Made by a program: the position numbers and the translations under genes
Shown here: in pieces, positions 1,334 through 41,932 of the stretch
Position numbering within the stretch: the first letter of the stretch is position 1
Layout: the number at the start of each line of letters is the position of its first letter
Virus record (IMG/VR): IMGVR_UViG_3300042691_037845
Span: 1 to 46,920 of that record
From: a virus
Length of the DNA stretch: 46,920 bases
Direction: 5' to 3' (one strand)
The notes under the pieces: generated by a model
The model's input: only the letters and a program-made list of their open reading frames with translations
Told to the model about the DNA's origin: nothing
The model's database searches: none

Positions 1334-3768
1334 CACTCGTCCCAAGTGGAGGAGGCTTCGCGCATGAGGCTAGCCAGCTCCGCTTTGGAGCGATTTTTAG
1401 CCTGTTTCCCTGTATGTGTCACGGAAATTTCGGCCACCCTCGAAGAACCCTGTCCACCACTCGATTTCGAGGGTGGCGCCTCTTTTATAGCGCCACCCTC
1501 AACTTTTTCCTCCAAACGCGGTTCGTCAAAATTATTTGAGGGTGGCGCTATACAAACTGCGCCACCCTCACGATCCAGTGCTGGACTGGGTTTTTCCAGG
1601 GTGGCCATTTTTTCCACCACACCCCCCGTAGGTGAGAGAGAGGTTTTTAGCTTTAAGCGATATTCATAACGAGGGGACCCCTTCCTCTCCTCCACCACTC
1701 TCTCCTCTACAAGCTGGTGCTCCACCAAGCGCTCCAGCCGCTTCTTCAAAGCCTTCACACTCCCTCCAACCGCTGGATCGCTCGCAAGCTGAGTCCGAGG
1801 CACCCAGCGCTCACCGGCGGTGTGGAGCCGCGCCAAGATCCGCGCCTCAAAGCCCGCCGGAGTGTCCTGCTGATCTGGTTCGATGTCCCGCAGCACAAAG
1901 TCCATGTCGTCGGTCTGGCGCAGCAGCATCTGTCGCCCCTTCCGCCCCGCCCTGGACTTCTCCACCGTGATAACCCGGTTCTCCGCCTGGGTCTTGCTAA
2001 AAGCGATCGACCAGGTTTCGTCGGTCGCATCCTTCAAGCTGGAGGTGCCCCTGTACCCGCCGTTCTTGTTGCTGTGGTGCAGCAGCAGAATCGTGCAGGC
2101 CGGGAACGCTGTCCCGTTGTTCAAAGCCAGCCAGTAGACAGGCGAAGCAAACTCCTTCTGGTTCTCGCTGTAGGCGCTGCCCCGCGAGCACCCAGTAATC
2201 GAGTCAATAACCACCAGATTCGGTCGGTGCTTCTCCACCATCCGCTTGAACCGCCCGTACCACTGCAGCTCCCACCCCTGCGACCGCTTCAACCCCTTCA
2301 AATCGTCGAGCGTCAAGTCAGCGTCCTTTAGCGTCCGCTTCAACTGGGCCGCCGACTGGTCCCCGTTCAACCAGAGCACCTTCCCAGGCACCCCACCATT
2401 CACCGGGAACATCTGCCCTCGAACGCTGAACTCCTCCGCTCGCAGCACATGCCGCGCCAGCGTCGCCGCAAAAGCACTTTTCCCGTTCCCGCCCTCACCG
2501 TGCAGCATGATCACAGCCGGCGACGGCAGCAGATCAGGAATCAAGTAGTCCACGTCGGTCGTGTCGGTGTACAGGCTTTCCCCGCTCATGTCGTCTCCGT
2601 TGAGTTGGAACTCAGCATCTGCAATCAGCAGACTCTCAATAGGCCCAGAATCCCGGTAACCGGATTCCAAAGCCAGCAAGTGCATCCTGTGGTTCTGCTC
2701 CGCCGGATTCTCCAGCTCCTGAAGCTCCTTTGCCTTAGCCAGCAGTTCCTTGTAATCCGCATAGCTCATCCGCGTCTTTTGAACCGTCGCAGCCTCAGCT
2801 CGCGCAACCGCATCCCGGCTGGCGTCCGAAAATCGCCGCCTCATCGGATCCTGCTGGTCCGCCATCCAGATCAGCGAGTTAAACCGAATCCCCCCGCCCC
2901 GCTTAAAGCTGCTCCACGCCGGCTCACAGGGATTCCCGTTCTTCCAGTCGTCTGCATACTCAGGATCCTCAGCACTCCACGCACTCCACAACGTCAGCCC
3001 CAGCTCGTTCGGCAGCGCATCGTGGATCGCCATCCCCACCTGCACCCACTGATCCCGGCTGTGCGCCCCCTGGTGCGGAATAACCCTCAAGCAATCCTGA
3101 ACGATCTCGGCAATCTCGTCCTCTGTCCGATCCGTAAAGTCCAGAGCCTTGCGATTCTTCAGCAGACCCTTCGCAACGGGCTCCTTCCGGGTAGCGGCAT
3201 CACGCATCTCCGCTATGAGCCACGCAGGCGCCTCTGGAATGGCTTCTAAGTCCCCTTCAAACCCGTAGTAGCCCTCAGGTGCCGTCCCCTCCTTAGAGCC
3301 CGGATAAGCGCCATACAGGAGCCCCTGCCGATTCCACAAAACTTCATATCCCGGCCCGTCTTCCACCAACGGAAAGCCCTTGACCTCGTTCCAATACTCC
3401 TCCGGCACCCGGAACAAGTATTTGGCAGCGTTCTTCTTCGTACTGGTAACCCGTGGAGCGCCCTCAAGCGAGTCCCCACACTTTCGAAGCAACAGCCCCA
3501 GCTTGTAATCCACGTCCAGAATCACCAGCCCCTTGCTCCGAGGCCCGGTGAACACACCCACCGCCTGGAACAGCTCCGGTTGCCGCTCGATCTGCAGCAG
3601 CACATCCGCCGGCCCCATGATCTGGTGGTGCGCCCGCCCCAGCGGCTCTTTCCCCTTGGCCACATGCCCACTGGGAAGCTGCGACCCCTTCGCATAAATC
3701 GGGGCATACGCATATCCCTGCGGCAAAGCCCGCACAAATGCGAGCAGCTCTTTCGCCTGGTCCGTCAC
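1333..3768 (-). CDS. Primase-helicase fusion (prim-pol domain, PriCT-2-like linker, RecA-like helicase)
   Basis: An 811-residue GTG-start protein predicted to make primers and unwind DNA at the phage fork. Residues 1-190 resemble the bifunctional primase/polymerase fold, with LVILDVDY (81-88) supplying the acidic metal-binding pair. Residues 215-303 match the primase C-terminal 2 pattern (DWKNGNPCEPAW...FNSLIWMA). Residues 405-630 are a RecA-like ATPase with Walker A GEGGNGKSA (424-432), Walker B LVVIDS (518-523) and LLHHSN (562-567). Residues 640-705 look like a winged helix. The last 100 residues are low complexity, with a duplicated GGA...APPS segment encoded by two DNA hairpins. It heads the leftward replication arm that also carries the family A polymerase. 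Confidence 0.92.
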   Translation of the reverse strand: MTDQAKELLAFVRALPQGYAYAPIYAKGSQLPSGHVAKGKEPLGRAHHQIMGPADVLLQIERQPELFQAVGVFTGPRSKGLVILDVDYKLGLLLRKCGDSLEGAPRVTSTKKNAAKYLFRVPEEYWNEVKGFPLVEDGPGYEVLWNRQGLLYGAYPGSKEGTAPEGYYGFEGDLEAIPEAPAWLIAEMRDAATRKEPVAKGLLKNRKALDFTDRTEDEIAEIVQDCLRVIPHQGAHSRDQWVQVGMAIHDALPNELGLTLWSAWSAEDPEYADDWKNGNPCEPAWSSFKRGGGIRFNSLIWMADQQDPMRRRFSDASRDAVARAEAATVQKTRMSYADYKELLAKAKELQELENPAEQNHRMHLLALESGYRDSGPIESLLIADAEFQLNGDDMSGESLYTDTTDVDYLIPDLLPSPAVIMLHGEGGNGKSAFAATLARHVLRAEEFSVRGQMFPVNGGVPGKVLWLNGDQSAAQLKRTLKDADLTLDDLKGLKRSQGWELQWYGRFKRMVEKHRPNLVVIDSITGCSRGSAYSENQKEFASPVYWLALNNGTAFPACTILLLHHSNKNGGYRGTSSLKDATDETWSIAFSKTQAENRVITVEKSRAGRKGRQMLLRQTDDMDFVLRDIEPDQQDTPAGFEARILARLHTAGERWVPRTQLASDPAVGGSVKALKKRLERLVEHQLVEERVVEERKGSPRYEYRLKLKTSLSPTGGVVEKMATLEKPSPALDREGGAVCIAPPSNNFDEPRLEEKVEGGAIKEAPPSKSSGGQGSSRVAEISVTHTGKQAKNRSKAELASLMREASSTWDE
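1469..1569. repeat. Two copies of an 11-bp-arm hairpin inside the primase-helicase 3' end
   Basis: GAGGGTGGCGC at 1469-1479 pairs with GCGCCACCCTC at 1490-1500, and the same arms occur at 1538-1548 and 1559-1569. Both loops are exactly 10 nt but differ in sequence. Arm conservation with variable loops shows a duplicated structural element rather than a simple coding duplication. In protein it encodes the two GGA...APPS stretches near residues 735-765. The flanks also carry the related strings GGCCACCCTCGA (1432-1443) and CAGGGTGGCC. Confidence 0.8.
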
Positions 3769-3771
3769 GCT

Positions 3772-6423: not shown

Positions 6424-6822
6424 TCAGAACGGGAGATCATCCGGCGGCGCCGTGGTGGGCGGCAGCCGGAAGCGCGTTACAGGCGCCGTGATGGCACGTC
6501 GAAACTGCGCTAGCGCCGCCGCGTGGGCACGGCTGGCGCGAACTGCCATCCCGTGATCCCCTTCCGCCATTGCCTGGCCTGCTAGCAGGTCCAACCGGTG
6601 AAGCGTGAGCATGGCGGCGGTGTCCAGCGCGTGGGGCGTCGCCTCGTCTACCAGTTCGAACGATGCGGCCGCAACGTACCGGCGGGCTTGGCGCAAGCTG
6701 ACACAGTACCGGCTAGCCAGCGTTTGGACCGCAAAGGCGGAACCAACGCCGGCCGCTAGCAGTTCGAGAGCATCCGCCTCTCGTTGCACCCGTTCCGCAT
6801 CTGTGGCGCGGTTCCGTTTCAT
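6424..6822 (-). CDS. Helix-turn-helix protein, small-terminase-like architecture
   Basis: A 132-residue protein. After a basic N-terminus (MKRNRATDAERVQ) comes a helix-turn-helix stretch at residues 28-52 (AVQTLASRYCVSLRQARRYV). A helical region follows with repeated Ala-rich helices and AMAEGDHGMAVRASRAHAA, then a Pro-rich tail. The order of HTH then paired helices parallels the likely small terminase subunit at 9546-9875, and the last helix pair could oligomerise. It could be a transcription regulator, a second TerS-like protein or a divergent paralogue. ATGA coupling to the upstream gene is at 6819-6822, and a terminator follows. Confidence 0.65.
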   Translation of the reverse strand: MKRNRATDAERVQREADALELLAAGVGSAFAVQTLASRYCVSLRQARRYVAAASFELVDEATPHALDTAAMLTLHRLDLLAGQAMAEGDHGMAVRASRAHAAALAQFRRAITAPVTRFRLPPTTAPPDDLPF

Positions 6823-7523
6823 AGGTTCGCGATCACGGTTTCAACTTTGCGGCGGCCATTGCCGTGCGCTCTAAAAACCACGGCAACATTTGACGGCCGG
6901 GTCTGGCAGAGTTGGCAGCGCTGGCACGTCATGCCGTCAAACCGCTGGGCCGGACAAACCACGGCGCGATTCCCGCCGGCGGTTTCCCACGTGGTGCGGG
7001 GATCATCGGCTGGCACGATGAATACGGCGCGCAATCCATCGGCCATGGCCGCGTCCGCTTCCGCTTCCGTGTGACAAGAGGCGTTGATTGTGAAACCGTT
7101 TGCCGTTGCGGCCCGGAACGCTTCCACCGTCCGCGGTGTCCGCTTGTGGTGCGAGAACGTGAAACCACGGCGGCCGCGGTTTGCGTCGACTAAGGCGTTG
7201 AGTGCTGTCCGGCCGGTGAGCGTTCCCGGTTTCCATAGGTCGCCAACCTGGTTATGTCGCCAGAGCTGACCGGCCGGTAGCTTCCGGATCAGCCCCAGAA
7301 AGTCGCCATACGGCACACCGCGGCTCCCATCCGTCACGGCCGCCCAGTGGATCGCAATGGGCCCGCCGTCCCCGTAGCAGCCCATACGCTTCAGCGGGCA
7401 AGAATCCGGACAAGTCTCGCGACTCGAAGTACTAACGGGGATGGGGCCGGTTTTGGCGTTAGAGCTGACAGGCGTTAGGTGGAAGCGCAAGCGGCCGGCG
7501 GTTTGTGGTTTTGTTTGTGCCAT
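6819..7523 (-). CDS. Cysteine-rich phage protein (DUF7227-like)
   Basis: A 234-residue protein starting MAQTKPQTAGRLRFHL at 7523; a longer frame upstream is less likely, as MAQT follows a compact leader. The N-terminal motif KTGPIPVSTSSRETCPDSCP and the set Cys38, Cys42, Cys49 (C-x3-CPL-x5-CY) match a family widespread in phages and mobile elements that I recall as DUF7227. A second set, Cys190, Cys200, Cys203, Cys206 (CQRCQLC), sits near the C-terminus. The two clusters probably bind a metal or an iron-sulfur centre. No activity is established. It overlaps the downstream gene as ATGA. Confidence 0.75.
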   Translation of the reverse strand: MAQTKPQTAGRLRFHLTPVSSNAKTGPIPVSTSSRETCPDSCPLKRMGCYGDGGPIAIHWAAVTDGSRGVPYGDFLGLIRKLPAGQLWRHNQVGDLWKPGTLTGRTALNALVDANRGRRGFTFSHHKRTPRTVEAFRAATANGFTINASCHTEAEADAAMADGLRAVFIVPADDPRTTWETAGGNRAVVCPAQRFDGMTCQRCQLCQTRPSNVAVVFRAHGNGRRKVETVIANL

Positions 7524-7552
7524 GGTTCGGTTTGTGATGGTTCGGGATGGGA

Positions 7553-8227
7553 TCAGATCACGCCAAGAATGCGGGTCCATGCTTCCGGGTGATCCGGCTC
7601 AACGGTTCGGCCGTCCGGCGTTTCCGCAACGGAATCCAACGCCCACGCCTCAACGTCGCCAAACGTGGGAACCGGCCACCATTGGCCGCGCCATAAAATT
7701 TCAGGCCACGAATCCGAACCGGTACGGATACGATCCGCCGGCATGGTTTCGTGGGCCGGGAACGGTTCCGCCGCTTCATCATCCGTTGCGGTTTCGTATC
7801 CCATAGCGGCCCGAACGGCCGCCGTAACTTCCGCCGCCGTACCGGCAGACTCGAGACGTTCTAGCGGTGTGATCTGGCGCGGCCCCACTAGCGGCTTGCC
7901 ATATCCCACGCGGTGGAGATCATCGCGCCATTGATCGCGCCAGCGCCACGCCTTAGCATCGCCGGCCGCCGTAACGCTTGCAAACGCCTGATCCCATAGT
8001 TTGGCCAGGGCGATGACGTCACGTTGCGCCGCGTTAAGTGATGGGCCAGCAAGGTATCCCGTAGCCTTATGGCTCACTGACCAGTAACGGCGCTCTTTGC
8101 TTAGCCCGTCCGGTTCGTTCCGGTTAAGTGGCCGGTGGACCGCTAGGTGTTGACCGTTCCAAACCGTGGGCACGGTTTTGGTTTTGGCGCCGTCCGCTAG
8201 GCGAACGTCGATGGTTTTGTTTGTCAT
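7553..8227 (-). CDS. Hypothetical protein, accessory block
   Basis: An unrecognised 224-residue protein. The N-terminal third (MTNKTIDVRLADGAKTKTVPTVW...LAVHRPL...RRYWSVSHKATGYLAG) looks like a beta barrel or sheet. The middle is helical with several Trp (LWDQAF, WRWRDQWRDDLHRVG). The C-terminal part (WPEILWRGQWWPVPTFGDVEAWALD) is Trp-rich. No metal-binding or nucleotide-binding motif is evident. It lies between the cysteine-rich gene and the 8249-8731 gene in the same direction, with gaps of 20-30 nt rather than overlaps. Confidence 0.75.
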   Translation of the reverse strand: MTNKTIDVRLADGAKTKTVPTVWNGQHLAVHRPLNRNEPDGLSKERRYWSVSHKATGYLAGPSLNAAQRDVIALAKLWDQAFASVTAAGDAKAWRWRDQWRDDLHRVGYGKPLVGPRQITPLERLESAGTAAEVTAAVRAAMGYETATDDEAAEPFPAHETMPADRIRTGSDSWPEILWRGQWWPVPTFGDVEAWALDSVAETPDGRTVEPDHPEAWTRILGVI

Positions 8228-9418: not shown

Positions 9419-9545
9419 GGTTCGGGTTGGAGCGGAGCCCACGGGTCGGGGTCGTTCTGCTCTCAACTGCCACTGTAGACGCTATGGGGCGATCCGTCTA
9501 CCCTTGCCGGTAACCTAGGTTCACACGGTAGCGGTTGGCTGCAGG

Positions 9546-11750: not shown

Positions 11751-11761
11751 CCACGGGCAAA

Positions 11762-11775
11762 CTAGGATATAAGAG
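11762..11775 (+). promoter_or_regulatory. CTAGGATATAAGAG element before the portal gene
   Basis: The AT-rich CTAGGATATAAGAG lies 15 nt before the portal GTG at 11790 in an otherwise GC-rich area. It combines the recurrent CTAGG core with a TATAAG -10-like hexamer. Confidence 0.45.
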
Positions 11776-11789
11776 TATTCCACTGGCTC

Positions 11790-13376
11790 GTGAGCGACAA
11801 CAGTAGCTACCCGATCGCTGCGGCCACCCCCAACCGCCCCGCCTACACCCTCCCCCTACCCCCCGGTGTCAACGACACCGACCCCTCCAAGCGCACCCAA
11901 CTCGTCCAGTCCATGGAGCCCGCCTGGGACCCCGTGGACGTCTGCGTCGGCGGCACCGCCGAACTCCGCACCCGCTCGCGGGATTTCATCCCACAAGAAC
12001 CCCGCGAAGACGACGCCGCCTACAACCGCCGCATCTTCCACGCCACGCTACCGCCGTTCTTGACGCGACTTGCCTCCCAAGCGGCAGGCGTCATCCTCCG
12101 CAAAGGCATCGACATCCAAGGCGACGACTACTGGCTCGACTGGTCCCAAAACGTCACCGGCGACGGCACCACCCTCAACGAATACGCCCGCCGCCAACTC
12201 ATCACCGCCATCCTCTACGGCCACTCGTCGACTATCGTCGACTTCTCCGCTTCAGCTACCCCGCGCAACCTCGCCGAAGAGCGCGCCCTGGCTCGTAAAC
12301 CGTATCTCGTCCCCATCCACCCCCGCCAAATCCTCGGCTGGCGCACGTCCAACGACAGCTGGTCGAGCGAACTCTCCCAAGTCCGCATCCGCGAAACCGT
12401 CGTCCTACCCGCCGGCCGCTACGGCGAAGAGCTAACCGACCAAATCCGCGTCCTAGAGCCCGGCCGCTACGAACTCTGGCGCCCCAACACCCCCCGCACC
12501 AACCTCCCCACCGGCGTCCAACTCCCCGGCCCCACCGCCTGGGAAATCTACGAAGAAGGCACCACCACGCTGGATCAAATCCCGCTGGTAACCGTCTACA
12601 GCAGCCGCCTCGGCAATCTTCTCAGCAAGCCACCTCTCTTAGAGGTGGCGCAGCTGAACATCGCCTACGCCCAGCGCTTCTGCGACTTCCACCACTCCAT
12701 CCACGTCGGCGCCTCCCCCATCCTCGTCCTCCGCGGCTTCGACCCCGACTCCGACAGCCCCATCGGCCTCTCGGTCAACAGCGCCCTGCTCCTGCCGCCC
12801 GACGGTGGCGCGGAATACGTCGAACCCACCAGCGACGCCTTCGACGCCCAACTCAAGTGCCTCGCCGCCCTTGAAGACCAAATCTCCCGCCTCGGCATCA
12901 ACACGCTCACCCAACAGAACGTCACCAACGCCGCCGCCGAATCCAAGCGCATGGATCGCATCGACAGCGACTCCATCATGGCCGTCATCGCCGGCGACCT
13001 AGAGCGCTCGATCGCCGAAATCTTCGACATCGCCGCCTCCTATGTCGGCATCGAACCCCCCACCATCTCCATCCCCCGCGACTACGAAAACCGCCTCCTC
13101 GACGGCAACCAAATCACGGCCTACCTGCAACTCTTCATGCAGAACGCCATCTCCCAAAAAACCCTCCTCACCATCCTCCAACAGGGCGAAGTCCTCCCCA
13201 CCACCCTCGACCTCGACGCCGAAGTCTCCGCCACCGCCGAAATGCTCGAAGAGCAAATGGCCATGTCCCGCCTCAACGCAGCCGGCCCCGACCTCGCCTT
13301 CCAAAACGCCGGCCAAGGCCAAGATCTCGACAGCCAGACCCTCCCCACCCCCATGCGCTCCGGTAGGGACGAATGA
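11790..13376 (+). CDS. Portal protein (DUF4055 type)
   Basis: A 528-residue protein forming the dodecameric gate at the capsid vertex. The N-terminal half includes ELRTRSRDFIPQEPREDDAAYNRRI and a helix LPPFLTRLASQAAGVILRKG. Then come the wing region (HPRQILGWR, PLVTVYSSR) and the stem-like helices (YAQRFCDFHHSIHVGASPILVLRG, LAALEDQISRLGINTLTQQN). This is the pattern of DUF4055 portal-like proteins. A GTG start follows a CTAGGATATAAG element. It overlaps the next small gene as ATGA. Its place after terminase and before the gpF-like protein is canonical. Confidence 0.88.
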   Translation: MSDNSSYPIAAATPNRPAYTLPLPPGVNDTDPSKRTQLVQSMEPAWDPVDVCVGGTAELRTRSRDFIPQEPREDDAAYNRRIFHATLPPFLTRLASQAAGVILRKGIDIQGDDYWLDWSQNVTGDGTTLNEYARRQLITAILYGHSSTIVDFSASATPRNLAEERALARKPYLVPIHPRQILGWRTSNDSWSSELSQVRIRETVVLPAGRYGEELTDQIRVLEPGRYELWRPNTPRTNLPTGVQLPGPTAWEIYEEGTTTLDQIPLVTVYSSRLGNLLSKPPLLEVAQLNIAYAQRFCDFHHSIHVGASPILVLRGFDPDSDSPIGLSVNSALLLPPDGGAEYVEPTSDAFDAQLKCLAALEDQISRLGINTLTQQNVTNAAAESKRMDRIDSDSIMAVIAGDLERSIAEIFDIAASYVGIEPPTISIPRDYENRLLDGNQITAYLQLFMQNAISQKTLLTILQQGEVLPTTLDLDAEVSATAEMLEEQMAMSRLNAAGPDLAFQNAGQGQDLDSQTLPTPMRSGRDE

Positions 13377-14403: not shown

Positions 14404-14440
14404 GTGTGCGAAGCACACGGTAAACTAAGAGTGTACCCTC
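14404..14440 (+). promoter_or_regulatory. Hairpin and CTAAGAG element ahead of the scaffold gene
   Basis: GTGTGC, loop GAA, GCACAC (14404-14418) is followed by GGTAAACTAAGAGTGTACCC, which has GGTA/TACC ends and resembles the 3772-3790 box. The scaffold GTG is at 14451. The hairpin may end or protect the upstream transcript and the box may restart transcription. Confidence 0.4.
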
Positions 14441-17267: not shown

Positions 17268-17274
17268 CCGGAAT

Positions 17275-17286
17275 CCTAGGAGTAAC
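17275..17286 (+). promoter_or_regulatory. CCTAGGAGTAAC box before the neck gene
   Basis: CCTAGGAGTAAC lies 11 nt before the ATG at 17298. The near-identical CCTAGGAGTAAG is at 26118-26129 before another late gene. It is too far from the ATG to be a simple Shine-Dalgarno site. Confidence 0.45.
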
Positions 17287-17297
17287 GCCAGCCGCCA

Positions 17298-17867
17298 ATG
17301 CCCGCCTCTATTACAGCCACCGTTGGCAGCGCCTCGGCGAACTCCTATCTCACCATCGCGGCCGCCGACTCGATCGCCGAAACGATGCTCGGCACTTTGG
17401 CTTGGACCACCGCCACAACCGACCAAAAGACTCGTGCGCTGATCACCGCCACCCGCGGCCTCGACACCCTCGACTGGATCGGCGATCGCACCACAACAAC
17501 CCAAGCGCTGGACTGGCCACGCTCCGACGCCTCGTGCGGCGGCATTGATTACCCCGACGACGAAATCCCAGAGCAGCTCAACTACGCCACCTTTGACCTA
17601 GCCAACGCCCTGCTCGGCACCCCAACGCTGCTGCAATCCCCCGCAGTCAGCTCCACCGAACTCGTCCCCGGCGTCCCCAACAAAGACCTGCGCCGCCTCA
17701 AGCTGGACGTGATGGAACTGGAGTGGCGCACCGACATCTCCGCCGCCTCCGCCTCGATCGTCAGCCCCCTCTCCGCCCTGCCGCACCTCGCCACAATTCT
17801 GGGCTGCCTCACCACCAGCGTGATCCCCGGCGGCATGGGCCGCGTCATTGACCGAGTTCGCAGCTAG
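17298..17867 (+). CDS. Neck / head-tail connector protein (DnaT_2-like family)
   Basis: A 189-residue protein. The N-terminal pattern (ATVGSASANSYLTIAAADSI..LAWTTATTDQKTRALITATRGLDTLDWIG) followed by ALDWPRS...IPEQLNYATFDLANALL matches a family often labelled 'DnaT-like ssDNA-binding' in phages. The members sit in the head-tail connector slot and are more likely neck adaptors. The gene lies after the head proteins and a CCTAGGAGTAAC box. The C-terminal 60 residues (VMELEWRTD...SALPHLATILGCL) are also typical. Confidence 0.82.
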   Translation: MPASITATVGSASANSYLTIAAADSIAETMLGTLAWTTATTDQKTRALITATRGLDTLDWIGDRTTTTQALDWPRSDASCGGIDYPDDEIPEQLNYATFDLANALLGTPTLLQSPAVSSTELVPGVPNKDLRRLKLDVMELEWRTDISAASASIVSPLSALPHLATILGCLTTSVIPGGMGRVIDRVRS

Positions 17868-17901
17868 GACGCACGGCATACTCCGGCGTTAGGCTGTGAG
17901 T

Positions 17902-18444
17902 ATGCCAACTGCCTTCCCACAAGAGAAGCCAAAAAAGAAGCCGGTCCGCGGCTACTTGGCCACCCCGCTGTCCCGCGACGAGCAGCGCCACGTTGATCGC
18001 ATGTACCGCGAACACGGCGGCCTCGTCAACCACATGGGCCGCAAGTTCTGCCGCAAATACCCCGCCCTCCTCAAAGAAGACATCTACAGCTGCATCAACA
18101 TCGCCTTCATCAAAACCTGCCGCGCTTGGAACCCAGAGAAAGGCACCTTCTCCACGATCTTCGCCATCTTTTGCGAGGGCGAGATCCGCCACTTCATCCG
18201 CGACCACAACTGGTCCGTCCGCGCCCCAAGCTCCGTCCGCTCGCTCGGCCTCCGCGCCCAATACATGCTCCGCGGCGGCGCCACCTTTGAAGCCGTCTGC
18301 GCCGAACTCAAAACCGAGTCCGAAGACCTCAAACTCGCCCTCTTCTCCGTCCAGTCGCTCGACCACGAAACCCAAGACTTCAAGTGGCATCTCTGCCCCC
18401 GCCCCACGCCCTGGGACGTCCTTGAAGCCTCAGAGGAAAACTAG
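17902..18444 (+). CDS. Sigma-70-like protein with region 2 and a region-3-like part, no region 4
   Basis: A 180-residue protein. Residues 39-113 follow sigma region 2: GLVNHMGRKFC, then EDIYSCINIAFIKTCRAW, NPEKGTFSTIFAIFCEGEIRHFIRDH, then VRAPSSVR. The FSTIFAIFCEGEIRHFIR stretch corresponds to the -10-recognition helix. Residues 128-158 (TFEAVCAELKTESEDLKLAL..SLDHE) resemble region 3. No region 4 or 1.2 is present. It should bind RNA polymerase and read -10-type promoters. I chose ATG 17902 over GTG 17896 for better spacing to AGG. A sigma gene inside the structural operon is unusual. It could instead be an HTH regulator. Confidence 0.75.
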   Translation: MPTAFPQEKPKKKPVRGYLATPLSRDEQRHVDRMYREHGGLVNHMGRKFCRKYPALLKEDIYSCINIAFIKTCRAWNPEKGTFSTIFAIFCEGEIRHFIRDHNWSVRAPSSVRSLGLRAQYMLRGGATFEAVCAELKTESEDLKLALFSVQSLDHETQDFKWHLCPRPTPWDVLEASEEN

Positions 18445-18450
18445 GTTTAT
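18441..18450 (+). promoter_or_regulatory. CTAGGTTTAT element before the major tail gene
   Basis: CTAGGTTTAT contains the TAG stop of the sigma-like gene and lies 17 nt before the GTG at 18468. It has the CTAGG core of the recurrent upstream box. Confidence 0.35.
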
Positions 18451-18467: not shown

Positions 18468-19229
18468 GTGGCCACTGGTTCTTTCTTCGCGGCGTTGGGC
18501 TATAAGCTCTACGTCAAGCTGGGCACCACGGCCAGCAACATCCCCACGACCTCCGGCGGGATGACCCGGATCCTGTCGCTGGACAACACCGGCATCCAGG
18601 GCACCTCCGAATCCACCTCGGTCGTTGACTACGACTCCGAGCAGGGCTTCCAGTCCAACCTCATCACGAGCCAGAGCTACAGCATCCCCTGCTCGATGAA
18701 CCTTGACGTCACCGACGGTGGCTACGAGATCCTCAAGAAGGCCGCCATCAACGCCGCCTCCGGCTCCCTGCTGGAGTGGTACCGCGAAACCCCCGTCACC
18801 GACGCCTCGGGCGACGACTCTGAAGTCCACGCCGGCCTCGCCCAGATCGGAGATTTCTCTGAGGATATTGTCGCAGGCAACGTGGCGAAGGTCAGTTTTA
18901 CCCTCACCGGCTACGGCGCCTATAAGTTCTACCCACAGGGCAACCCGATCGCCACGCTGACGATCACCACCGCTGGCTCGGGCCTGACCCCCGCCACCTA
19001 CACCGGCGTCTCGCTGATCTCCTCCAGCCCCGCCGCCGGCATCGGCTCCGGCAAGGGCGCCACCGCCACCATCATCGTTGCTGCTGGTGGCACGGTCACC
19101 GCCACCCCGACGATCGTGGCCGGCGGCACCAACTACCGCGTGGGCGACATCCTGACCGTGGCCCTGGGCGACGTCGGCGGCGCCGGCGGCGACGTAGTCC
19201 CCACCTTCACCGTCGCCACCGTAAGCTGA
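18468..19229 (+). CDS. Major tail protein with C-terminal beta domain
   Basis: A 253-residue tail tube protein. Residues 1-157 read as a tube domain: YKLYVKLGTTASNIPTTSGG, a loop with STSVVDYDSEQGFQSN, then strands and LTGYGAYKFYP. Residues 158-253 form a Gly/Thr/Ala-rich extra domain (ATLTITTAGSGLTPATYTGV...GGTNYRVGDILTVALG), a repeat-type beta fold found as decoration on tail and fibre proteins. GTG start; a strong terminator follows. Its position before the tape measure supports the call. Confidence 0.85.
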   Translation: MATGSFFAALGYKLYVKLGTTASNIPTTSGGMTRILSLDNTGIQGTSESTSVVDYDSEQGFQSNLITSQSYSIPCSMNLDVTDGGYEILKKAAINAASGSLLEWYRETPVTDASGDDSEVHAGLAQIGDFSEDIVAGNVAKVSFTLTGYGAYKFYPQGNPIATLTITTAGSGLTPATYTGVSLISSSPAAGIGSGKGATATIIVAAGGTVTATPTIVAGGTNYRVGDILTVALGDVGGAGGDVVPTFTVATVS

Positions 19230-19248: not shown

Positions 19249-19276
19249 AGCCGCCTCTAACCGGGGCGGCTTTTTT
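19249..19276 (+). terminator. Intrinsic terminator after the major tail gene
   Basis: AGCCGCC, loop TCTAACCGG, GGCGGCT followed by TTTTTT (stem 19249-19271, T-run to 19276). The T-run overlaps the end of the convergent gene (19275). It therefore separates the major tail transcript from the inverted neck genes. Confidence 0.9.
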
Positions 19277-19712
19277 ATGCCTTGCCGCCACCGGCCAGCT
19301 CGCGCCAACGCTGCAAAAAGAACGGCTTAAACGGCTTCTGCTGGAGCGCCGCACCAATCCAGTTCCGGGGTTTGGCTACCGCTCCACTCGCCGTCACAAA
19401 CGAATCCTGCTGGACCGCTGCCGCATACGGCGCCGTCCACCGAATCGTCAGCACACTCATCATCCCGTCCCGCACCACCACTGGCTCGGTCTGCGAATTC
19501 AACAGCGTTCCGGTGTCCACAATGTCCCGCTTGCCCTTGGGAACAAACTTTCCGCTGTACAGACCGATGCGCCGATACGTCGGCGACGGCCAGTCCCAGT
19601 TCCGCGCCAGTACCTGAGCCCGCGCCTCATCAGCAATCTGCGGCCCAAACTCCCGCAAAATCTTGTCCGACCTCGCCAGCAGCTCCTCTGCGTTCCAGCT
19701 TTTAATCCGCAT
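19275..19712 (-). CDS. Tail completion / HK97 gp10-like protein, inverted
   Basis: A 145-residue protein. Features recall the HK97-gp10 group of tail completion proteins: an N-terminal helix (WNAEELLARSDKILREFGPQIADEARAQVLA), a middle VDTGTLLNSQTEPVV (the 'D-T-G-x-L-x-x-S' motif), and APYAAAVQQ near the C-terminus. It would cap the tail end that joins the head. The gene is on the minus strand, opposite to all neighbouring structural genes, and overlaps the next inverted gene at its start (TGATG). The orientation implies its own promoter, probably the box at 20115-20130. Confidence 0.78.
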   Translation of the reverse strand: MRIKSWNAEELLARSDKILREFGPQIADEARAQVLARNWDWPSPTYRRIGLYSGKFVPKGKRDIVDTGTLLNSQTEPVVVRDGMMSVLTIRWTAPYAAAVQQDSFVTASGAVAKPRNWIGAALQQKPFKPFFLQRWRELAGGGKA

Positions 19713-20104
19713 CAGCTCTGAACCCTGCTGGCCAGCCGAATCTTGGTCCCCAACGCACTGTTGAGCACCGACCCAATCAGCCCAGTCTCCCCATAGGGCA
19801 ACCGCACCTCCAGCACCTCGCAGTCCTGCGTATCCTGCCCGGCAAAGTCAATAGTGCCTGACGTCCCCACCTTCACCCCGGCATCGAGCGTCCCAGTCGT
19901 CACATACCCCTCAAACAGCGTCGTAATAATGTTCACCCCTGGATAGGTCGTCTCCGCCACGCTCTCCCCCTTGAGGAATGCCCCCACCTGCACGGTGGTC
20001 GTGTTGGCTACGACGTTCCCCGTCTCAGCATCCACCGTTGTCCCAGCCGCTGGCACGGTGAAAGTCACCGTCGCGTTCTGCAATCCCACCAGCGCCGAAG
20101 CCAC
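19712..20104 (-). CDS. Probable head-tail adaptor/stopper, inverted
   Basis: A 130-residue, beta-rich protein with a GTG start (MASALVGLQNATVTFTVPAAG...). Strands such as TTVDAETGNVVANTTTVQVGAFLKG and a C-terminal VLEVRLPYGETGLIGSVLN suit head-closure or adaptor proteins, which often read 'T..G....V...V.V.A.L'. Coupling to the gp10-like gene supports a neck role. Family identity is not certain. It begins the two-gene leftward unit inside the late region. Confidence 0.6.
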   Translation of the reverse strand: MASALVGLQNATVTFTVPAAGTTVDAETGNVVANTTTVQVGAFLKGESVAETTYPGVNIITTLFEGYVTTGTLDAGVKVGTSGTIDFAGQDTQDCEVLEVRLPYGETGLIGSVLNSALGTKIRLASRVQS

Positions 20105-20114
20105 AGCCGTTCCG

Positions 20115-20153
20115 CTTTACCCCTAGTTTCCCGCCCCACTCCGGCAACCTAGG
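20115..20153. promoter_or_regulatory. Divergent CTAGG boxes between inverted neck genes and tape measure
   Basis: On the minus strand GAAACTAGGGGTAAAG (20130-20115) lies 10 nt before the GTG at 20104. On the plus strand CCTAGG (20148-20153) then TCAAAGG lies 21 nt before the GTG at 20175. The two boxes face away from each other, as expected for divergent promoters. Confidence 0.5.
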
Positions 20154-26103: not shown

Positions 26104-26117
26104 GCAGGCTTCGGAAA

Positions 26118-26129
26118 CCTAGGAGTAAG
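26118..26129 (+). promoter_or_regulatory. CCTAGGAGTAAG box
   Basis: CCTAGGAGTAAG lies 13 nt before the ATG at 26143. It differs by one base from 17275-17286 and stands in the only sizeable gap between 20175 and 28858. Confidence 0.45.
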
Positions 26130-28858: not shown

Positions 28859-29451
28859 GCCACGCCTACCCAGGCACCTTTGAGCGCCGCACTTTCCACG
28901 GCGAACTCCGCACCGTAGTGCTGGCCGCTTGGCGCCATCTCCACAAAATCCGCCGCGATCTCGCCTCACTACAGGAGCTACCTATCGCGGCGCTCCAAGC
29001 CATGACGGCCAACATCAACCGCGACCCCAAGAAGACCAAGCCCTTCACGGCGCTGGACTTCGCCATGTACCGCGAGCGCGAAGCCGACGACAAGGTGCTT
29101 CCCCCACAAGTGGCCGCCACCGTGCTGGCTCTCCGCGCCGAGCGCAAGGACGCCCCAATCCTGCTCGCCGCCTGGGACAAAGTCCTCGCCAGCGCCGACA
29201 GCTCCGCCACGCCTCCGGCGGTAAGAGCGCTGCACTCCGATGACCGCATGGCCTGGATCGTCTGCCCCACTTGGGAAGGCAAGAATATCCGCGCCGGCCT
29301 CATCGCCATCGGCGACGCCCTTTCCGGCCCCATCACCCTGCGCGACGTGGATCGCCCGCTTGCCACCTACACCGTTACACTGCCGAACCGCAACACCTTT
29401 GCCTGGCTTGAAACCAATCTGCTGTTGGTCGCCGGAACATCGGAAAACTAG
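28798..29451 (+). CDS. Tail assembly chaperone, -1 frame extension (gpT-like half of the G-T fusion)
   Basis: Read after slippage this adds 217 residues to residues 1-173 of the upstream protein (390 in total). Real coding starts at once: TPWAEIFWELSHAYPGTFE then RRTFHGELRTVVLAAWRHLH, then a domain ending WLETNLLLVAGTSEN. A separate start at GTG 28918 would cut away the conserved-looking WAEIFWELSHAYPG stretch, so frameshift expression is preferred. In lambda-like phages the extension domain binds the tail tube protein while the G part binds the tape measure. Confidence 0.8.
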   Translation, partial: AAAGATGRQETPWAEIFWELSHAYPGTFERRTFHGELRTVVLAAWRHLHKIRRDLASLQELPIAALQAMTANINRDPKKTKPFTALDFAMYREREADDKVLPPQVAATVLALRAERKDAPILLAAWDKVLASADSSATPPAVRALHSDDRMAWIVCPTWEGKNIRAGLIAIGDALSGPITLRDVDRPLATYTVTLPNRNTFAWLETNLLLVAGTSEN

Positions 29452-29452
29452 G
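29448..29452 (+). promoter_or_regulatory. CTAGG core before the collagen-like fibre gene
   Basis: AAAACTAGG ends at 29452 and contains the stop of the chaperone frame. It lies 23 nt before the GTG at 29476. It is the same arrangement as at 18441-18445. Confidence 0.3.
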
Positions 29453-29475: not shown

Positions 29476-32400
29476 GTGAATCTGCTGGAACTACGCACTG
29501 AGCTAGCTTCCCTGCTGTCCGCGTCGCTCGGCACCTACACGCTGCCCAACGGCGACACCACCCCCGCCATCTCCGTCCGCTCCAGCGGCGAAGCTCTACC
29601 CACTGGCACGTCCGTCACCGGTCTAGAGGTGGTGCTGATCCGTGACCCGGATCTAACACCCATCCCGCAGTACACCGACTCCGGCGCGCTTCGCAGCTGG
29701 ACGGTTTTCTTAATTGACTGGAGCGACGCCACCGACCTAGAGCCGATCGGCGCCTACCTCGTCGAGGCATACCCCGGCACCCAGGTCACCACCGTCGCGG
29801 TGCCCAAAGGCACCGGCCCGCAAAACCAAATGCGGGTCACCATCCAGTCGGTCGCCCAACCGCCCGAAGGCTTTCCGGCCTACGACCCAGTCCGCTTCCC
29901 TACCGTCTCGGCCCTCGGCTTCGAGACTGACGCCAACATTGACCCGGCCCAAGGCCAGATCACCTGGGAATCAGACACCAGCACTCTGATCCTCGGCCTG
30001 ACCGACAACGTCGATCTCCATCTCGGCGCCGACCAGATCACCCTCTGCCGCAACAACAGCAACTCGGTCGCCATTCCCAAGGGCACCGGCGTCATGTTCG
30101 CCGGCACCGTCGGCAACAGCGGCCGCCTCAAGGTCGCCCCAATGGTGGCCAACGGCACCTACCCCGGCTACGTCTTCTTCGGCGTCACTGCCGAAATCAT
30201 CCCTGCCGGCGGCGACGGCTTCGTCACCTCCTTCGGCAAAGTCCGCGGCGTCAACACCACCGCCTACACCGAAGGCGACATCCTCTGGTGCGACCCAGCC
30301 ACACCAGGCGGCTTTACCGCCACTGAGCCCACAGCTCCCAACCTCAAACTCCCCGTCGCCGCCGTCGTCCACGACGCCAACAACGGCATCCTGATGGTCC
30401 GCTGGAACGTCGGCTCCCGCCTCCGCGACCTCCACGACGTTGAATCCGCTTCCGCCACTAACGGCCAAGTCCTGGCCTGGAACACAGCCGCCAGCCGCTG
30501 GTCGCCCGTTTCCCCCAGCTCGGGCGCCACTGGCCCAGCCGGCGCAACCGGCGCCACCGGCGTAGCCGGAACGATCGGCGTTGATGGCAGCACCGGCCCC
30601 ACCGGAGCCACCGGCCCCCAAGGCGCCACCGGCGCCGCCGGCACCATCGGAGTTGACGGCAGCACTGGCGCCACCGGCGCCACCGGTGTAGGAACAACCG
30701 GCGCCACAGGCGTTGCCGGCCCCTCCGGCCCATCGGGCGCCACTGGCCCCAGCGGCCCCGAAGGCCCCACTGGAGCGCAAGGCACAGCCGGCGCCGACGG
30801 CGCAACCGGAGCCACAGGCGCCACTGGCCCCATCGGCATCACCGGCGCCACTGGCGCGGGCTCCACTGGTGCCACAGGAATTGCCGGTGCAACCGGAGTT
30901 ACTGGTCCTGTCGGTGCAACAGGTATCGGCATCACCGGAGCCACCGGTATTCAAGGAGCCACTGGACCCTCGGGCCCCACTGGTGCGACCGGTGTCCAAG
31001 GTAGCACCGGTCCAGAAGGCCACACTGGCGCAACGGGCGCCACTGGCGTCATCGGTATTACCGGTGCCACGGGCGCCATTGGCGCTACCGGTGTTGAAGG
31101 CCCTACGGGAGCATCAGGTGTAACTGGCGCCACCGGTCCGCAAGGCGCTACAGGTGTAGGCATAACCGGCGCCACCGGCGTTTCCGGCACAGTTGGTTCT
31201 ACAGGCGCTACAGGAGCAGGCGCCACCGGCGCTACCGGCCCAACCGGTGCTAATGGAGTTGATGGTGCTACAGGTCCCCAAGGAAGCACAGGTGCATCAG
31301 GTGCCACTGGCGCCACCGGAGTCCAAGGCAGCACAGGTCCCATTGGCATCACCGGAGCCACCGGCGCGACCGGCGTCATCGGTGTTAGTGGAGCCACAGG
31401 TCCTGCCGGTGCTACTGGCATCGCAGGCCCCACCGGAGTTACAGGTGCCACCGGTGCGACCGGTGTTCAAGGCGCCACAGGTGTTGGGGTCACCGGCGCC
31501 ACCGGAGTGGCAGGTACTGACGGCGCTACCGGTGCTACCGGTATAGGTATAACCGGAGCCACTGGTGCGTCCGGCGTCAACGGCGCCACCGGCGCAACAG
31601 GAGTTGGCACCACAGGCGCCACCGGCGTAGGAACAACCGGCGCGACGGGAGCCACTGGTGCGGCGGGCATCAGCGCCTCGGGCCGCATCTGGTACTTCCG
31701 CCAGACCAACTCCGACATCAGCGGCTACGAGTCGCTCCAGCCGGACACCCCCGACTCAGATCCGACTGACGATATGACGGCGGTTGTCGTCGACACCAGC
31801 GGTCAAGTTATTATCGAGGAATTTGCTACCGATGCGGGCGATCCAAACCTAAGTGAAATTCCTGCCGGTGAATACGAATGGCGTTTTTGGGCGTATGTTA
31901 GCGACAATATCGGTAGCACGAATCTAAATTTCAAGGTATATAAGCGCAATACCGGTGGCACCGAGACGTTCCTGTTTGAGCTTGATGGACCCGAAATCAA
32001 CGCCACGTCAAGCAACTATTACACGGCACTAATTGTTGCAACGAGCGTAATTCCTCTCGACCCGACTGATCGAATCGTAGTCAAGGTCTACGCCGAGACG
32101 ACCCACACCAGCAACGTCACCGCTCACTTCCTTCACTCGGGCGCCACCCCCAGCAGCATCCGTACTGCCATTACCCAGGGCTACGTCGGCCCCGTCGGCG
32201 CCACCGGAGCTACAGGCGTCGCCGGCCCCACTGGAGCGACAGGCGTTGCCGGCGCTTCCGGTGCCACTGGCCCCGCCGGAGTCACAGGCGCCACCGGCGC
32301 CGCAGGCATTGATGGAGCCACTGGCGCCACGGGTGTCGCAGGCGTAGACGGCGCTACGGGCGCAGTTGGTGTTTCGGGCGCCACCGGAGTCCAAGGTGCC

Positions 32401-36425: not shown

Positions 36426-38036
36426 ATGGCCAAACCCCGCCTGCACCTCGTCGGCATCTTCCACACCCAGCACACACAGGCCTACAGCCACTGTGCGTTC
36501 ACCGGCAAAGCCCTGCGCTTCCCTCGCATGATGCGGATGCAGGGCTACACGGTGATTGAGTACAGCAACGCTGGTTCGGAGTCGGAAGCCGACGAGCATG
36601 TTGTGATGCTCAGCGCCGCTGAGTTTGGGGCGCTCTACAACCGCAGCGAAACAGACTTCCACGGCAACGACGCCACCGTGGGCAGCGCCGGTCACCAACT
36701 CTTTGAACAGCGCCTGATCCCCGCACTGCGCGAGCGCCTGCAACCGCAAGACATCATTTGTCACCCCTTCGGTCACGCGCACCAGCAGCTCATGGCCGAG
36801 TTTCCCGGCCACCAGCACGTCGAAACCGGCATCGGCTACCCCACCTTGATGCCCGACAGCTTCCGCATCTTCGAGTCCTATGCCTGGATGCACTACCACC
36901 AAGGCAAAGAAAACCGCAACGGCAAAAACTACGAGTGGGTCGTCCCCAACTACTACGACCTTGACGACTGGGAACCCAGCTACGAACCAGGGCAGTACCT
37001 CGCCTTCCTCGGGCGCATCACCCCGCTCAAAGGCATTGACACCATCAAGGCGATAGCCGACCACAGCCCGTGGCCCATCGTCCTCCACGGCCAAGGCGAC
37101 CCCACGCCCTGGGCGCATCCGAATATCGAGTACCGAGGCCCCATCGCGGGCAAGGCGCGTTCTGAGTTCCTCCGCAATGCTCGGGCGCTGCTGGCCCCGA
37201 CGGTCTTCACTGAACCGTTCTGCGGCATGGCAGTAGAGGCCATGCTCTGCGGGACCCCGGTGGTGGCGGTGGATTACGGCGCCATGACCGAAACCGTCAT
37301 TGAGGGCATCAGCGGCTTCCGCTGCCACACCCTGCAGGACTGGATCGACGGCATCCTCGCTGTGGGCGATTTGGACCGTCGCACCATTGCCGACATTGCC
37401 CGCAGCAAGTGGTCGCTAGAAGCCTGCGGCAAGCGCTACGACAAGATCTTCCGCCAGCTCAACGACCTGTACCGCGCCGGCTGGTACGAGCTGCGCGAGA
37501 TCAGCTACACCCAAATCGAGCAGGAGGAAGGCCCTTTCGCCAAGCGCCTTGCCGCCTGGATCGCCGATACGCTCCAGCCGCAGACAGCACTGGACATCGG
37601 CTGCGGCCCTGGCATCTATGTAGACGCCATGCGCGAACACGGGATTGACGCTACCGGCATTGACACCGACGAGCGAGTGCAGGGCAAAGAGCACCTGCGC
37701 CAGCAAAGCCTTTTTGAGAACGAGGACACCGCCGAGCTGGTGATCTGCCTAGAGGTAGCTGAGCATATTGCCGAAGACCAGGCCGACGTTGTAGCCGCCA
37801 GCATTGCTGCTGCCGTAGCGCCGGGCAGCACCTTGATCTGGAGCGCTGCCCAACCCGGCCAAGGCGGCGTTGGCCACATCAACTGCCAGCCCAAGGACTA
37901 CTGGGCTGAGCGCCTCACCTCCAACGGCTTGCAGCGCGACGAGGAGATCGAGCAGCACCTCAGGGAGTACGCCGCCAGCGGCTACCACATGGGCTGGTTC
38001 GTCAACAACTGCATGGTCTTCTACCGGGCAAGCTAG
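36426..38036 (+). CDS. Glycosyltransferase-methyltransferase fusion
   Basis: A 536-residue two-domain enzyme. Residues 1-345 are a GT4-type (GT-B fold) glycosyltransferase: FLGRITPLKGIDTI (194-207) binds the nucleotide sugar, and EPFCGMAVEA (263-272) is the E-x7-E donor motif with MLCGTPVVAVDYGAMTE behind it. Residues 375-536 are a class I SAM methyltransferase: ALDIGCGPGIYVDAM (388-402), acidic Asp413, and LVICLEVAEHI (438-448). The domains could add and then methylate a sugar on fibres, on phage DNA, or on host lipopolysaccharide. It lies between fibre and lysis genes, 12 nt after the previous stop, with a GCTAGCTAAGC element just upstream. Confidence 0.85.
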   Translation: MAKPRLHLVGIFHTQHTQAYSHCAFTGKALRFPRMMRMQGYTVIEYSNAGSESEADEHVVMLSAAEFGALYNRSETDFHGNDATVGSAGHQLFEQRLIPALRERLQPQDIICHPFGHAHQQLMAEFPGHQHVETGIGYPTLMPDSFRIFESYAWMHYHQGKENRNGKNYEWVVPNYYDLDDWEPSYEPGQYLAFLGRITPLKGIDTIKAIADHSPWPIVLHGQGDPTPWAHPNIEYRGPIAGKARSEFLRNARALLAPTVFTEPFCGMAVEAMLCGTPVVAVDYGAMTETVIEGISGFRCHTLQDWIDGILAVGDLDRRTIADIARSKWSLEACGKRYDKIFRQLNDLYRAGWYELREISYTQIEQEEGPFAKRLAAWIADTLQPQTALDIGCGPGIYVDAMREHGIDATGIDTDERVQGKEHLRQQSLFENEDTAELVICLEVAEHIAEDQADVVAASIAAAVAPGSTLIWSAAQPGQGGVGHINCQPKDYWAERLTSNGLQRDEEIEQHLREYAASGYHMGWFVNNCMVFYRAS

Positions 38037-38060
38037 GTATGCAGCGGCTTTTCGGTACTG

Positions 38061-39972: not shown

Positions 39973-40464
39973 TTACGTGTGTTTAGTGGTTTTAATTGGC
40001 GTTTCAACTGCTTTAGCAACAGGCCACCCGAGGTAATGTATGCGAGAGTGTAAACGTGCTATGCTAATTCCACAAATTTCATAAAGTTCAGTTAAACAGT
40101 ACAAATTATTTTTGTAGATATATTTTCTGTTTGCATGTCTTTTATTATGACCGTTGTGACTCCATTCTAAATTAGTTAATTTATTATTCGCAGGATTTTT
40201 ATCTATATGGTTAATCATTGTAGCCCACACCGGTACAGGAGACATAAAAGCTTCCATTACCAATCTGTGTACTTTCAATTGCTTTCCTTTTATGCCTACA
40301 GCTGTGTACCCATCTTTAACTATTACAGGTTTAAGAATGTGCTCAGATATCCAACGCCTTCCTTTTCCTTCGCAGCTCCATCGCGCTAAACTTTTTACCC
40401 TGCCCTGATTGGAAACTTCGTAAAAGCCCTCATACCCGCGAGCGGGCTGCCATACTTCTTGCAT
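39973..40464 (-). CDS. HNH homing endonuclease with NUMOD4
   Basis: A 163-residue protein. The NUMOD4 module (EVWQPARGYEGFYEVSNQGR) is followed by an HNH core (KVHRLVMEAFM, then INHIDKNPANNKLTNLEWSHNGHNKRH). Its base composition, strongly AT-rich with AAA/ATT codons, stands out against the GC-rich surroundings and indicates recent arrival. It is convergent with the endolysin gene, 10 nt from its end. I chose ATG 40464; GTG 40476 would add four residues. Such enzymes cut DNA at or near their insertion site in related phages. Confidence 0.9.
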   Translation of the reverse strand: MQEVWQPARGYEGFYEVSNQGRVKSLARWSCEGKGRRWISEHILKPVIVKDGYTAVGIKGKQLKVHRLVMEAFMSPVPVWATMINHIDKNPANNKLTNLEWSHNGHNKRHANRKYIYKNNLYCLTELYEICGISIARLHSRIHYLGWPVAKAVETPIKTTKHT

Positions 40465-40551
40465 CAGCTCAGTCACAATGAGTTGGTCACGCCCCAGGGG
40501 CTGGAACCCGCCGGGGCAACCTAATGTTACTGGATCCCGTTCGGTCTTGGC

Positions 40552-40762: not shown

Positions 40763-41041
40763 ATGGCACTGGCTGAGTGGCTCATCCCCAAACCCAGCCT
40801 CGCTGCTCAGGCCCAGTACCGGCACACCTGCGACATCCTCCGAAGCGAAGGCCGAGAGAACATAGACCGCGTCATTGACTTGGCCTGCTCGCTCGCCCAA
40901 CAGAACATGCTGCAGCAGACCATCATAAGGCAGGCGACCCAGCACATTGGCGAGCTGGAGCTGATTTCCCTTTTAATGGAAGCCCCGCCCCGGCGCCCCA
41001 CACTCGGCCAGCGCCTGGCTCGCCTGCTGGGTCGTGAATGA
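40763..41041 (+). CDS. Small helical protein, tail-to-tail with the sigma factor gene
   Basis: A 92-residue protein (MALAEWLIPKPSLAAQAQYRHT...). Amphipathic helices (IDRVIDLACSLAQQNMLQQTIIRQATQHIGELELISLLME) and a basic tail (RRPTLGQRLARLLGRE) are visible. It runs rightward between leftward genes and overlaps the last 69 nt of the RpoD-like gene on the opposite strand. An upstream CTAGACT box and coherent helical composition support reality. Function unknown; a link to the sigma factor is speculative. Confidence 0.55.
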   Translation: MALAEWLIPKPSLAAQAQYRHTCDILRSEGRENIDRVIDLACSLAQQNMLQQTIIRQATQHIGELELISLLMEAPPRRPTLGQRLARLLGRE

Positions 41042-41932
41042 ATTGGCCACGGCCATGTAATGCCGCATCTTCCGATGCGCCACCCCCAAAATTTGCCGGA
41101 CCCGCTCCCGGCTAACTCCCATCTCCCGCCCCAGCTCCGAGTACGTCTCCGACACGTCCGTGCCCAGCCCCCAATACCGCTTCACCAACTCCGCCTCCTT
41201 GTCCGTCAAGTGCTGGAACGCCCCATCCAGCATTGACTGCATCTCCATCTGCTCCGCCTGCCGCATCGACTCCGTCCCCGCAGGATCAAGCGGGTCACAG
41301 ATCAAGTCTCCCAGCGAGCTGCCCTCGCCCTCCAGCGCCACCTTGTCGAGTGAGTAGACCTGTTGCCCTCGGTTGATGTACAGCCGCACGTCCTCGACAG
41401 TCACACCGAAGTGCTTAGCCATCTCCTCGGTAGTCGGCATCCTCCCGTGACGCTGCCCCAACTCCTGGATCGCACTGCTCCAGTTGGCCGCCATCTCGGC
41501 AATCTTCCCAGGCAGCCGCACCACCCGCTCCTTGGTCGAGATCGCCCGAGCCATTGACTGCCGGATCCACCAGTACGCATAGGTGCTGAACTTGTACCCC
41601 CGCGTTGGATCGAACTTCAGAACCCCGTGCATCAGGCCAATGTTGCCCTCCTGCACCAGATCCATCAGCTCCATGTGGGTCACCACGCGGTAGTACCGCT
41701 TGGCCACATTGACGACCAGCCGCAGATTCGCCTTAACGAAGTGCTCCACCGCTCGCTCGCCGATGCGAACCTCGCGCCGCTCCTTAGGCGTCAGCTCCCG
41801 CTGCTCCTCCTTCAGCGCCACCATCCGCTGGATCTTCCGTCCCAGGTCGATCTCCTGGTCGCTGCTCAGCAGCGGCGTCCGCCCGATCGCATTGAGATAT
41901 GCCTCGACCGAGTTCGCCTTCGGGTAATGCAC
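40973..41932 (-). CDS. RpoD-like (group 2 type) RNA polymerase sigma factor
   Basis: A 319-residue factor that should redirect host RNA polymerase. Region 1.2 (NSVEAYLNAIGRTPLLSSDQ), region 2 (NLRLVVNVAKRYY, DLVQEGNIGLMHGVLKFDP, GYKFSTYAYWWIRQSMARAI), region 3 (PTTEEMAKHFGVTVEDVRLY) and region 4 (LTDKEAELVKRYWGLG; YSELGREMGVSRERVRQIL, residues 263-281) are all present, close to cyanobacterial group 2 sigma factors. The C-terminal 25 residues after region 4 are unusual. GTG start, because region 1.2 begins right there. The upstream gene overlaps its start by about 150 nt. Confidence 0.95.
   Translation of the reverse strand: MHYPKANSVEAYLNAIGRTPLLSSDQEIDLGRKIQRMVALKEEQRELTPKERREVRIGERAVEHFVKANLRLVVNVAKRYYRVVTHMELMDLVQEGNIGLMHGVLKFDPTRGYKFSTYAYWWIRQSMARAISTKERVVRLPGKIAEMAANWSSAIQELGQRHGRMPTTEEMAKHFGVTVEDVRLYINRGQQVYSLDKVALEGEGSSLGDLICDPLDPAGTESMRQAEQMEMQSMLDGAFQHLTDKEAELVKRYWGLGTDVSETYSELGREMGVSRERVRQILGVAHRKMRHYMAVANSFTTQQASQALAECGAPGRGFH

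Follow-up and report, generated by a model that had tools for sequence, protein, structure and literature searches.

The single virus record IMGVR_UViG_3300042691_037845 from IMG/VR, whose 46,920 bases are the stretch analyzed here (the window), encodes a 180-amino-acid protein that we call sigR2 (positions 17902 to 18444, plus strand, ATG start). By sequence and fold, sigR2 is a sigma-70-family protein with sigma2 and sigma3 domains and without sigma4. We propose with good confidence that sigR2 is the late sigma factor of a phage family, that its sigma2 and sigma3 domains read GGnAAnCTAGG (the box) as an extended −10 element, and that its regulon consists of virion and lysis genes. Structure prediction, conservation, and the co-occurrence of sigR2 with the box all favor a sigma that lacks region 4 and recognizes boxes with no −35 element.

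sigR2 has sigma region 2 and a region-3-like domain and lacks region 4

The original prediction, made from the DNA letters alone, had assigned a sigma-70 region 2 and a region-3-like segment to this gene and had called region 4 missing, and profile searches of sigR2 bore this out. The protein begins with a GYLATPL motif, followed by region 2 (residues ∼34 to 104), the region-3-like segment (∼105 to 150), and a conserved tail, H.CPRPTPW..LE (∼163 to 175). Profile searches returned no match to region 4 in the sigR2 protein, and the chain ends ∼30 residues past the region-3-like domain. The Pfam profile Sigma70_r2, which had been suggested as a check, aligned to residues 34 to 104 of the window's protein with 18.8 bits (cutoff, 24 bits) and matched 29 of 31 aligned members of the sigR2 family (best member, E = 3.9e-6). 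Matches were also obtained to TIGR02980 (SigB/F/G; residues 30 to 121, E = 1.1e-9) and to PHROG 351, RNA polymerase sigma factor (residues 28 to 156, E = 2e-16). A comparison of the family profile with solved structures retrieved Staphylococcus aureus SigB, in an alignment that spans region 2 and continues into the region-3 segment. Across the family, D60, F83-S84-T85, G93, N103-W104, and parts of the tail are invariant.

The AlphaFold2 model of sigR2 (mean pLDDT, 76; good at residues ∼22 to 148) is likewise consistent with sigma region 2; a misfit here would have counted as refuting the original prediction. When the model was compared with the Protein Data Bank (Foldseek, VIA-align), sigma factors were found throughout among the matches listed. 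The N-terminal domain of SigE aligned with a Z score of 10.2 over 77 residues at 2.3 Å, and the sigma2-sigma3 stretches of SigB, SigS, and Sig70 aligned to model residues ∼22 to 150 (23 to 150 for SigB) with a larger root mean square deviation, as would be expected if both domains sit at a different angle. sigR2 is predicted to bind core RNA polymerase and to direct initiation.

A scan of IMG/VR found 85 stretches that encode a sigR2 relative, and 80 loci were retained (42 to 100% identity). The same neighbors recur around the gene: a neck gene lies closely upstream in 88 of 90 loci, and the same tail-like gene comes next in 88 of 90. In the window, these are the head-tail adaptor Ad1 gene (PHROG 477; 17298 to 17867, plus strand) and a tail-protein-like gene (PHROG 38654; 18468 to 19229, plus strand). 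Ratios of nonsynonymous to synonymous substitution rates (dN/dS) between the relatives and the window sequence ranged from 0.03 to 0.56. sigR2 is a real gene under purifying selection, and its synteny is conserved. A genome search placed sigR2 on one phage-like contig in a Rhodoferax metagenome-assembled genome (contig L163, 56% identity), which is probably a misbinned phage contig.

An extended box precedes late genes of the window

Which sequence would such a sigma read? The original prediction had pointed to CTAGG boxes that lack a −35 element, and this claim held in part. Bare CTAGG, found 60 times in the window with 63 expected, is at chance level and was rejected as a signal. The longer element GGnAAnCTAGG, recognized as common to the upstream sequences of structural genes, is enriched, with 8 exact sites compared to 0.15 expected. 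Window boxes lie ∼17 to 24 nucleotides (nt) upstream of late gene starts, and no conserved −35 accompanies them.

On the plus strand, the box GGTAACCTAGG (9509 to 9519) precedes gene 9546, which has a weak Rz-like lysis match, and GGCAAACTAGG (11756 to 11766) precedes the portal gene at 11790. Two sites with one mismatch follow, GGTAAACTAAG (14419 to 14429) before gene 14451 and GGAATCCTAGG (17270 to 17280) before the neck gene at 17298. The box GGAAAACTAGG occurs at 18435 to 18445, before the tail-like gene at 18468, and again at 29442 to 29452, before the collagen-like gene at 29476, a probable tail fiber. Further plus-strand boxes are GGAAACCTAGG (26113 to 26123) before gene 26143 and GGCAAGCTAGG (38027 to 38037) before gene 38061, which opens a run of genes up to lysozyme at 38796. 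A divergent pair is formed by GGGAAACTAGG on the minus strand (20122 to 20132), which precedes the minus-strand genes 20104 and 19712, and GGCAACCTAGG on the plus strand (20143 to 20153), which precedes gene 20175. We also observed that the region 19275 to 20104 holds two minus-strand genes, without a Pfam match, within the plus-strand structural run and with a box of their own.

The box at 18435 overlaps the end of sigR2 itself: the final codons of the gene, GAG GAA AAC TAG (EEN and stop), make up the box of the next gene. In the relatives too, the TAG stop of the upstream gene is often inside the next gene's box, so that putative promoter and C-terminal codons overlap. Because the genes upstream of boxes are mutually unrelated, the box is a feature of the DNA and not of the proteins. 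Genes that start at the stop of the preceding gene are without a box.

Boxes occur with sigR2 in relatives

The box pattern was set in the window and then counted in other loci, with expectations from first-order random sequence. The 90 loci with sigR2 contained 183 exact boxes compared to 3.6 expected; some of these loci overlap, and 111 sites are nonredundant. Not one exact box (3.0 expected) was counted in 40 loci whose capsid and neck genes are homologous but which have no sigR2. The same held for whole records (n = 30), where exact boxes were present in 18 of 20 with sigR2 and in 0 of 10 without it. The pattern read backwards gave a few stray matches in both groups of records alike. Four isolated phages with a related portal or terminase had neither sigR2 nor exact boxes.

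The position of the box is also conserved. In the relatives, four orthologous genes gave 162 unique upstream sequences, of which 156 have a box with at most 2 mismatches, and the spacer from box to start codon has a median of 21 nt (interquartile range, 17 to 23). Upstream sequences of portal, 14451-type, and neck genes were within 1 mismatch of the box in 100 of 117 cases when sigR2 was present and in 0 of 39 when it was absent. No conserved −35 was found in the relatives' upstream sequences, in which every position from −60 to the box carried ≤0.17 bits.

The spectrum of boxes varied with the clade of the sigma (exact boxes in 42 of 59 versus 24 of 103; Fisher P = 3e-9, for sequences that are not independent). 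Clades near the window's sigR2 use CTAGG almost exclusively, and other large clades add CTCGG, CTAGA, TTAGG, and CTAGT. At the free position before CT, A or C is preferred in the window's clades and C or T in the other large clades.

The sigR2 gene has a putative promoter of its own

The original prediction had described a late sigma inside the structural operon. The location between neck and tail genes stood, but sigR2 is not itself a box gene: no box was found upstream of it. Instead, TAGGCT, a putative −10 element of the form TAnnnT, lies 6 nt before the ATG (17890 to 17895, plus strand). A TAnnnT ending 5 to 8 nt (mostly exactly 6) before the sigR2 start was present in 47 of 51 unique relatives. 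The same test gave 0 of 50 for the neck gene, 3 of 55 for the 18468-type gene, 0 of 16 for portal, 1 of 22 for the 14451-type gene, and 0 of 37 for capsid. Six bases between the −10 hexamer and the ATG would make the A of the start codon +1 and thus yield a leaderless mRNA. Most likely, the sigR2 gene has its own sigma70-type promoter, which would be read before the late genes by a host sigma or by the full-length sigma of the phage described below.

Separately, an inverted repeat, GGCATACT...AGTATGCC, spans the sigR2 start (17875 to 17910) and is also found in one relative (L010, positions 3690 to 3770). We do not claim a hairpin over the start that silences read-through mRNA: the folding z score was −2.6 in the window and −5.2 in L010, and it was not strong in four other relatives. 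Similar CCCTRTTAGTCTAGCC sequences precede divergent early genes at 43159 (minus strand) and 43933 (plus strand). The copy at 43933 also fits TAnnnT, with an ATG 6 nt downstream, and is perhaps a further leaderless promoter.

A second, full-length sigma is encoded by the window

The window encodes another sigma (40973 to 41932, minus strand), which has regions 1.2, 2, 3, and 4 and is of the cyanobacterial RpoD/group-2 type. It was the sole Sigma70_r4 match when the window was searched by sequence for a lone sigma4 partner. A full-length sigma is likewise present in all eight sigR2-bearing records above 39 kb and could be the earlier step of a cascade. Phage KBS-S-2A and one further record (G025) have a full-length sigma without sigR2 and without boxes, a pattern which argues that the full-length sigma does not read the box.

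Likely host and other features of the record

The nearest relatives of the window's terminase and portal are those of cyanophages such as S-2L, S-H1, KBS-S-2A, and P-HS2 (32 to 46% identity). Because of this kinship and the cyanobacterial RpoD type of the second sigma, a cyanobacterial host is likely, and, judged from sequence, the phage family probably infects cyanobacteria. No near match to the window at the DNA level was present among phage records.

Three other genes of the window were recorded. A 536-amino-acid protein in which glycosyltransferase and methyltransferase domains are fused is encoded inside the late region (36426 to 38036, plus strand). An open reading frame resembling NUMOD4/HNH homing endonucleases lies close to the lysozyme gene (39973 to 40476, minus strand). 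The gene at 6819 to 7580 (minus strand) strongly matches DUF7227/PHROG 2554, a family without known function.

Discussion

On the basis of these results, we propose the following mechanism. The sigma2 domain of sigR2 would bind host core RNA polymerase, and sigma2 and sigma3 together would read GGnAAnCTAGG as an extended −10 element. Placed on the TGn-TATAAT frame, the box would read GGn-AAnCTA-GG (∼−15 to −5), with G at −14, A at −11, and the G's at the discriminator. No −35 would be needed, since sigR2 is without sigma4, and none was seen. Virion and lysis genes, among them those at the divergent pair, would form the regulon, with predicted late-gene leaders of ∼13 to 20 nt. The sigR2 gene would be transcribed as a leaderless mRNA from its separate −10-type promoter, by a host sigma or the full-length phage sigma, and the late genes would wait for sigR2. 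A more demanding form of this proposal is that sigR2 alone, with neither sigma4 nor a flap-binding partner, completes the late holoenzyme on a −10-only box, in a two-sigma cascade with a leaderless promoter inside the structural operon; we give it slightly less than an even chance.

Several observations weigh against the proposal. The lone window sequence scores under the Sigma70_r2 cutoff, and the AlphaFold2 model has low confidence at residues ∼150 to 180 (poor at 154 to 171). On the capsid tree, about one change accounts for which phages have sigR2 and which do not, and several tail-module genes are also missing from the phages without sigR2; the co-occurrence of box and sigR2 is therefore nearly a single evolutionary event. 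The contrast between clades and boxes is not significant inside window-like capsids alone (P = 0.11). In the window, the CTAGG before the terminase gene (10222) is a poor fit to the extended box. No box belongs to the major capsid gene (15221) itself, which probably relies on the promoter before 14451. Finally, no cultured relative carrying sigR2 was found, and phage records gave just weak general sigma matches.

In a variant of the proposal, the boxes are late promoters at which sigR2 would be inactive or weak until joined by a second protein, sigma4-like or flap-binding, in the manner of gp55 plus gp33 or RsoA plus SigO. We regard this as possible, though less likely than sigR2 acting by itself. 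The conserved tail H.CPRPTPW..LE is without an assigned role and would suit a partner. The window search turned up no lone sigma4 protein, but a partner like gp33 would be missed by a sequence search, because gp33 has no sequence similarity to sigma. The absence of a conserved −35 speaks against a partner, as does phiEco32 gp36, which works on a single-element promoter without region 4 (PMC8948821). It is unlikely that the full-length phage sigma reads the box, with sigR2 in an accessory role or modulating RNA polymerase. Although the two sigmas are encoded together in each of the longer records with sigR2, a good region 4 should go with a −35, none of which is conserved, and KBS-S-2A and G025 carry that sigma and lack boxes.

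About equally improbable is a box that is no promoter but acts in RNA, as a signal for translation or processing within the leaders of late mRNAs, with its link to sigR2 due to shared ancestry only. The fixed distance from box to start codon and the frequent TAG stop of the upstream gene within the box are what such a signal might show. However, boxes are present where no same-strand gene ends just upstream (the divergent pair 20122/20143), are missing where a gene starts at the preceding gene's stop, are too distant from the start for a Shine-Dalgarno sequence, and are found only with sigR2, varying by sigma clade. The position of sigR2 among virion genes and its loss of region 4 could also suggest a decaying or repurposed sigma relic without a role in transcription, for instance a virion protein. 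We consider this very improbable, given the strong conservation of the region-2 core, dN/dS values below 1, the gene's own conserved putative promoter, and the co-occurrence with boxes. sigR2 as the late sigma of its phage family remains the reading that we favor.

Small or divided sigmas are known from other systems. In T4, the small late sigma gp55 acts with gp33, which has no sequence similarity to sigma; the pair has been termed a split sigma (PMC2988020), and the structure of the system has been described (PMC7892883). Like sigR2, gp55 (PHROG 234) has sigma2 without sigma4, is of similar size (185 versus 180 amino acids), and uses a single element near −10. The analogy drawn in the original prediction is sound to the extent that sigR2 lacks region 4 and its −10-type box lacks a −35; kinship with gp55 was not recognizable, and sigR2 is closer to SigB/F/G. 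An hhalign comparison of the family profiles gave a probability of 0.3% over 11 columns, and sigR2 had no PHROG 234 match. In contrast to gp55, sigR2 retains a sigma3-like domain and has a different box. T4 also uses gp33 and the sliding clamp, whereas no such partner was identified in the window, where no fold search was made.

The phiEco32 protein gp36 (PHROG 1740) lacks region 4 homology and recognizes tAATGTAtA as its single promoter element (PMC8948821). It resembles sigR2 as a region-4-less phage sigma with single-element middle and late promoters. BLASTP and hhalign gave no meaningful match between the two, which fall in different PHROGs. Their boxes differ, and gp36 is the product of a middle gene that lies outside the structural genes, whereas sigR2 lies between neck and tail genes. 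Over regions 2 and 3, sigR2 is nearest to the group 3 sigmas SigB, SigF, and SigG (TIGR02980; S. aureus SigB, 8x6g), which have a similar fold but possess region 4 and use a −35. In Bacillus subtilis, RsoA contributes sigma2 to a two-subunit sigma (PMC10028694). By description, it is like sigR2 in providing the sigma2 portion as a protein of its own, but it works with a sigma4-bearing partner, and none was found in the window. The late-gene upstream sequences described here, predicted promoters with one conserved element and no −35, match what is seen with phage sigmas of single-element late promoters.

A system of this kind is thus already known. As far as we searched the literature, the sigR2 family and its box appear to be undescribed, as do the region-3-like domain of the protein, the location of its gene between neck and tail, and the putative leaderless control; we found no paper on phage sigmas described as lacking region 4, nor on a CTAGG late promoter. 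The sigR2 group is widespread and uncultured. Our data hint at how late genes may be switched on in non-T4-like relatives of cyanophages, for which no such description was found in the literature searched. The small sigma, its exact predicted box, and the natural variants among clades suggest a small orthogonal promoter system. sigR2 would be a further phage example, unrelated in sequence to gp55 and gp36, of dropping sigma4 for −10-only late transcription.
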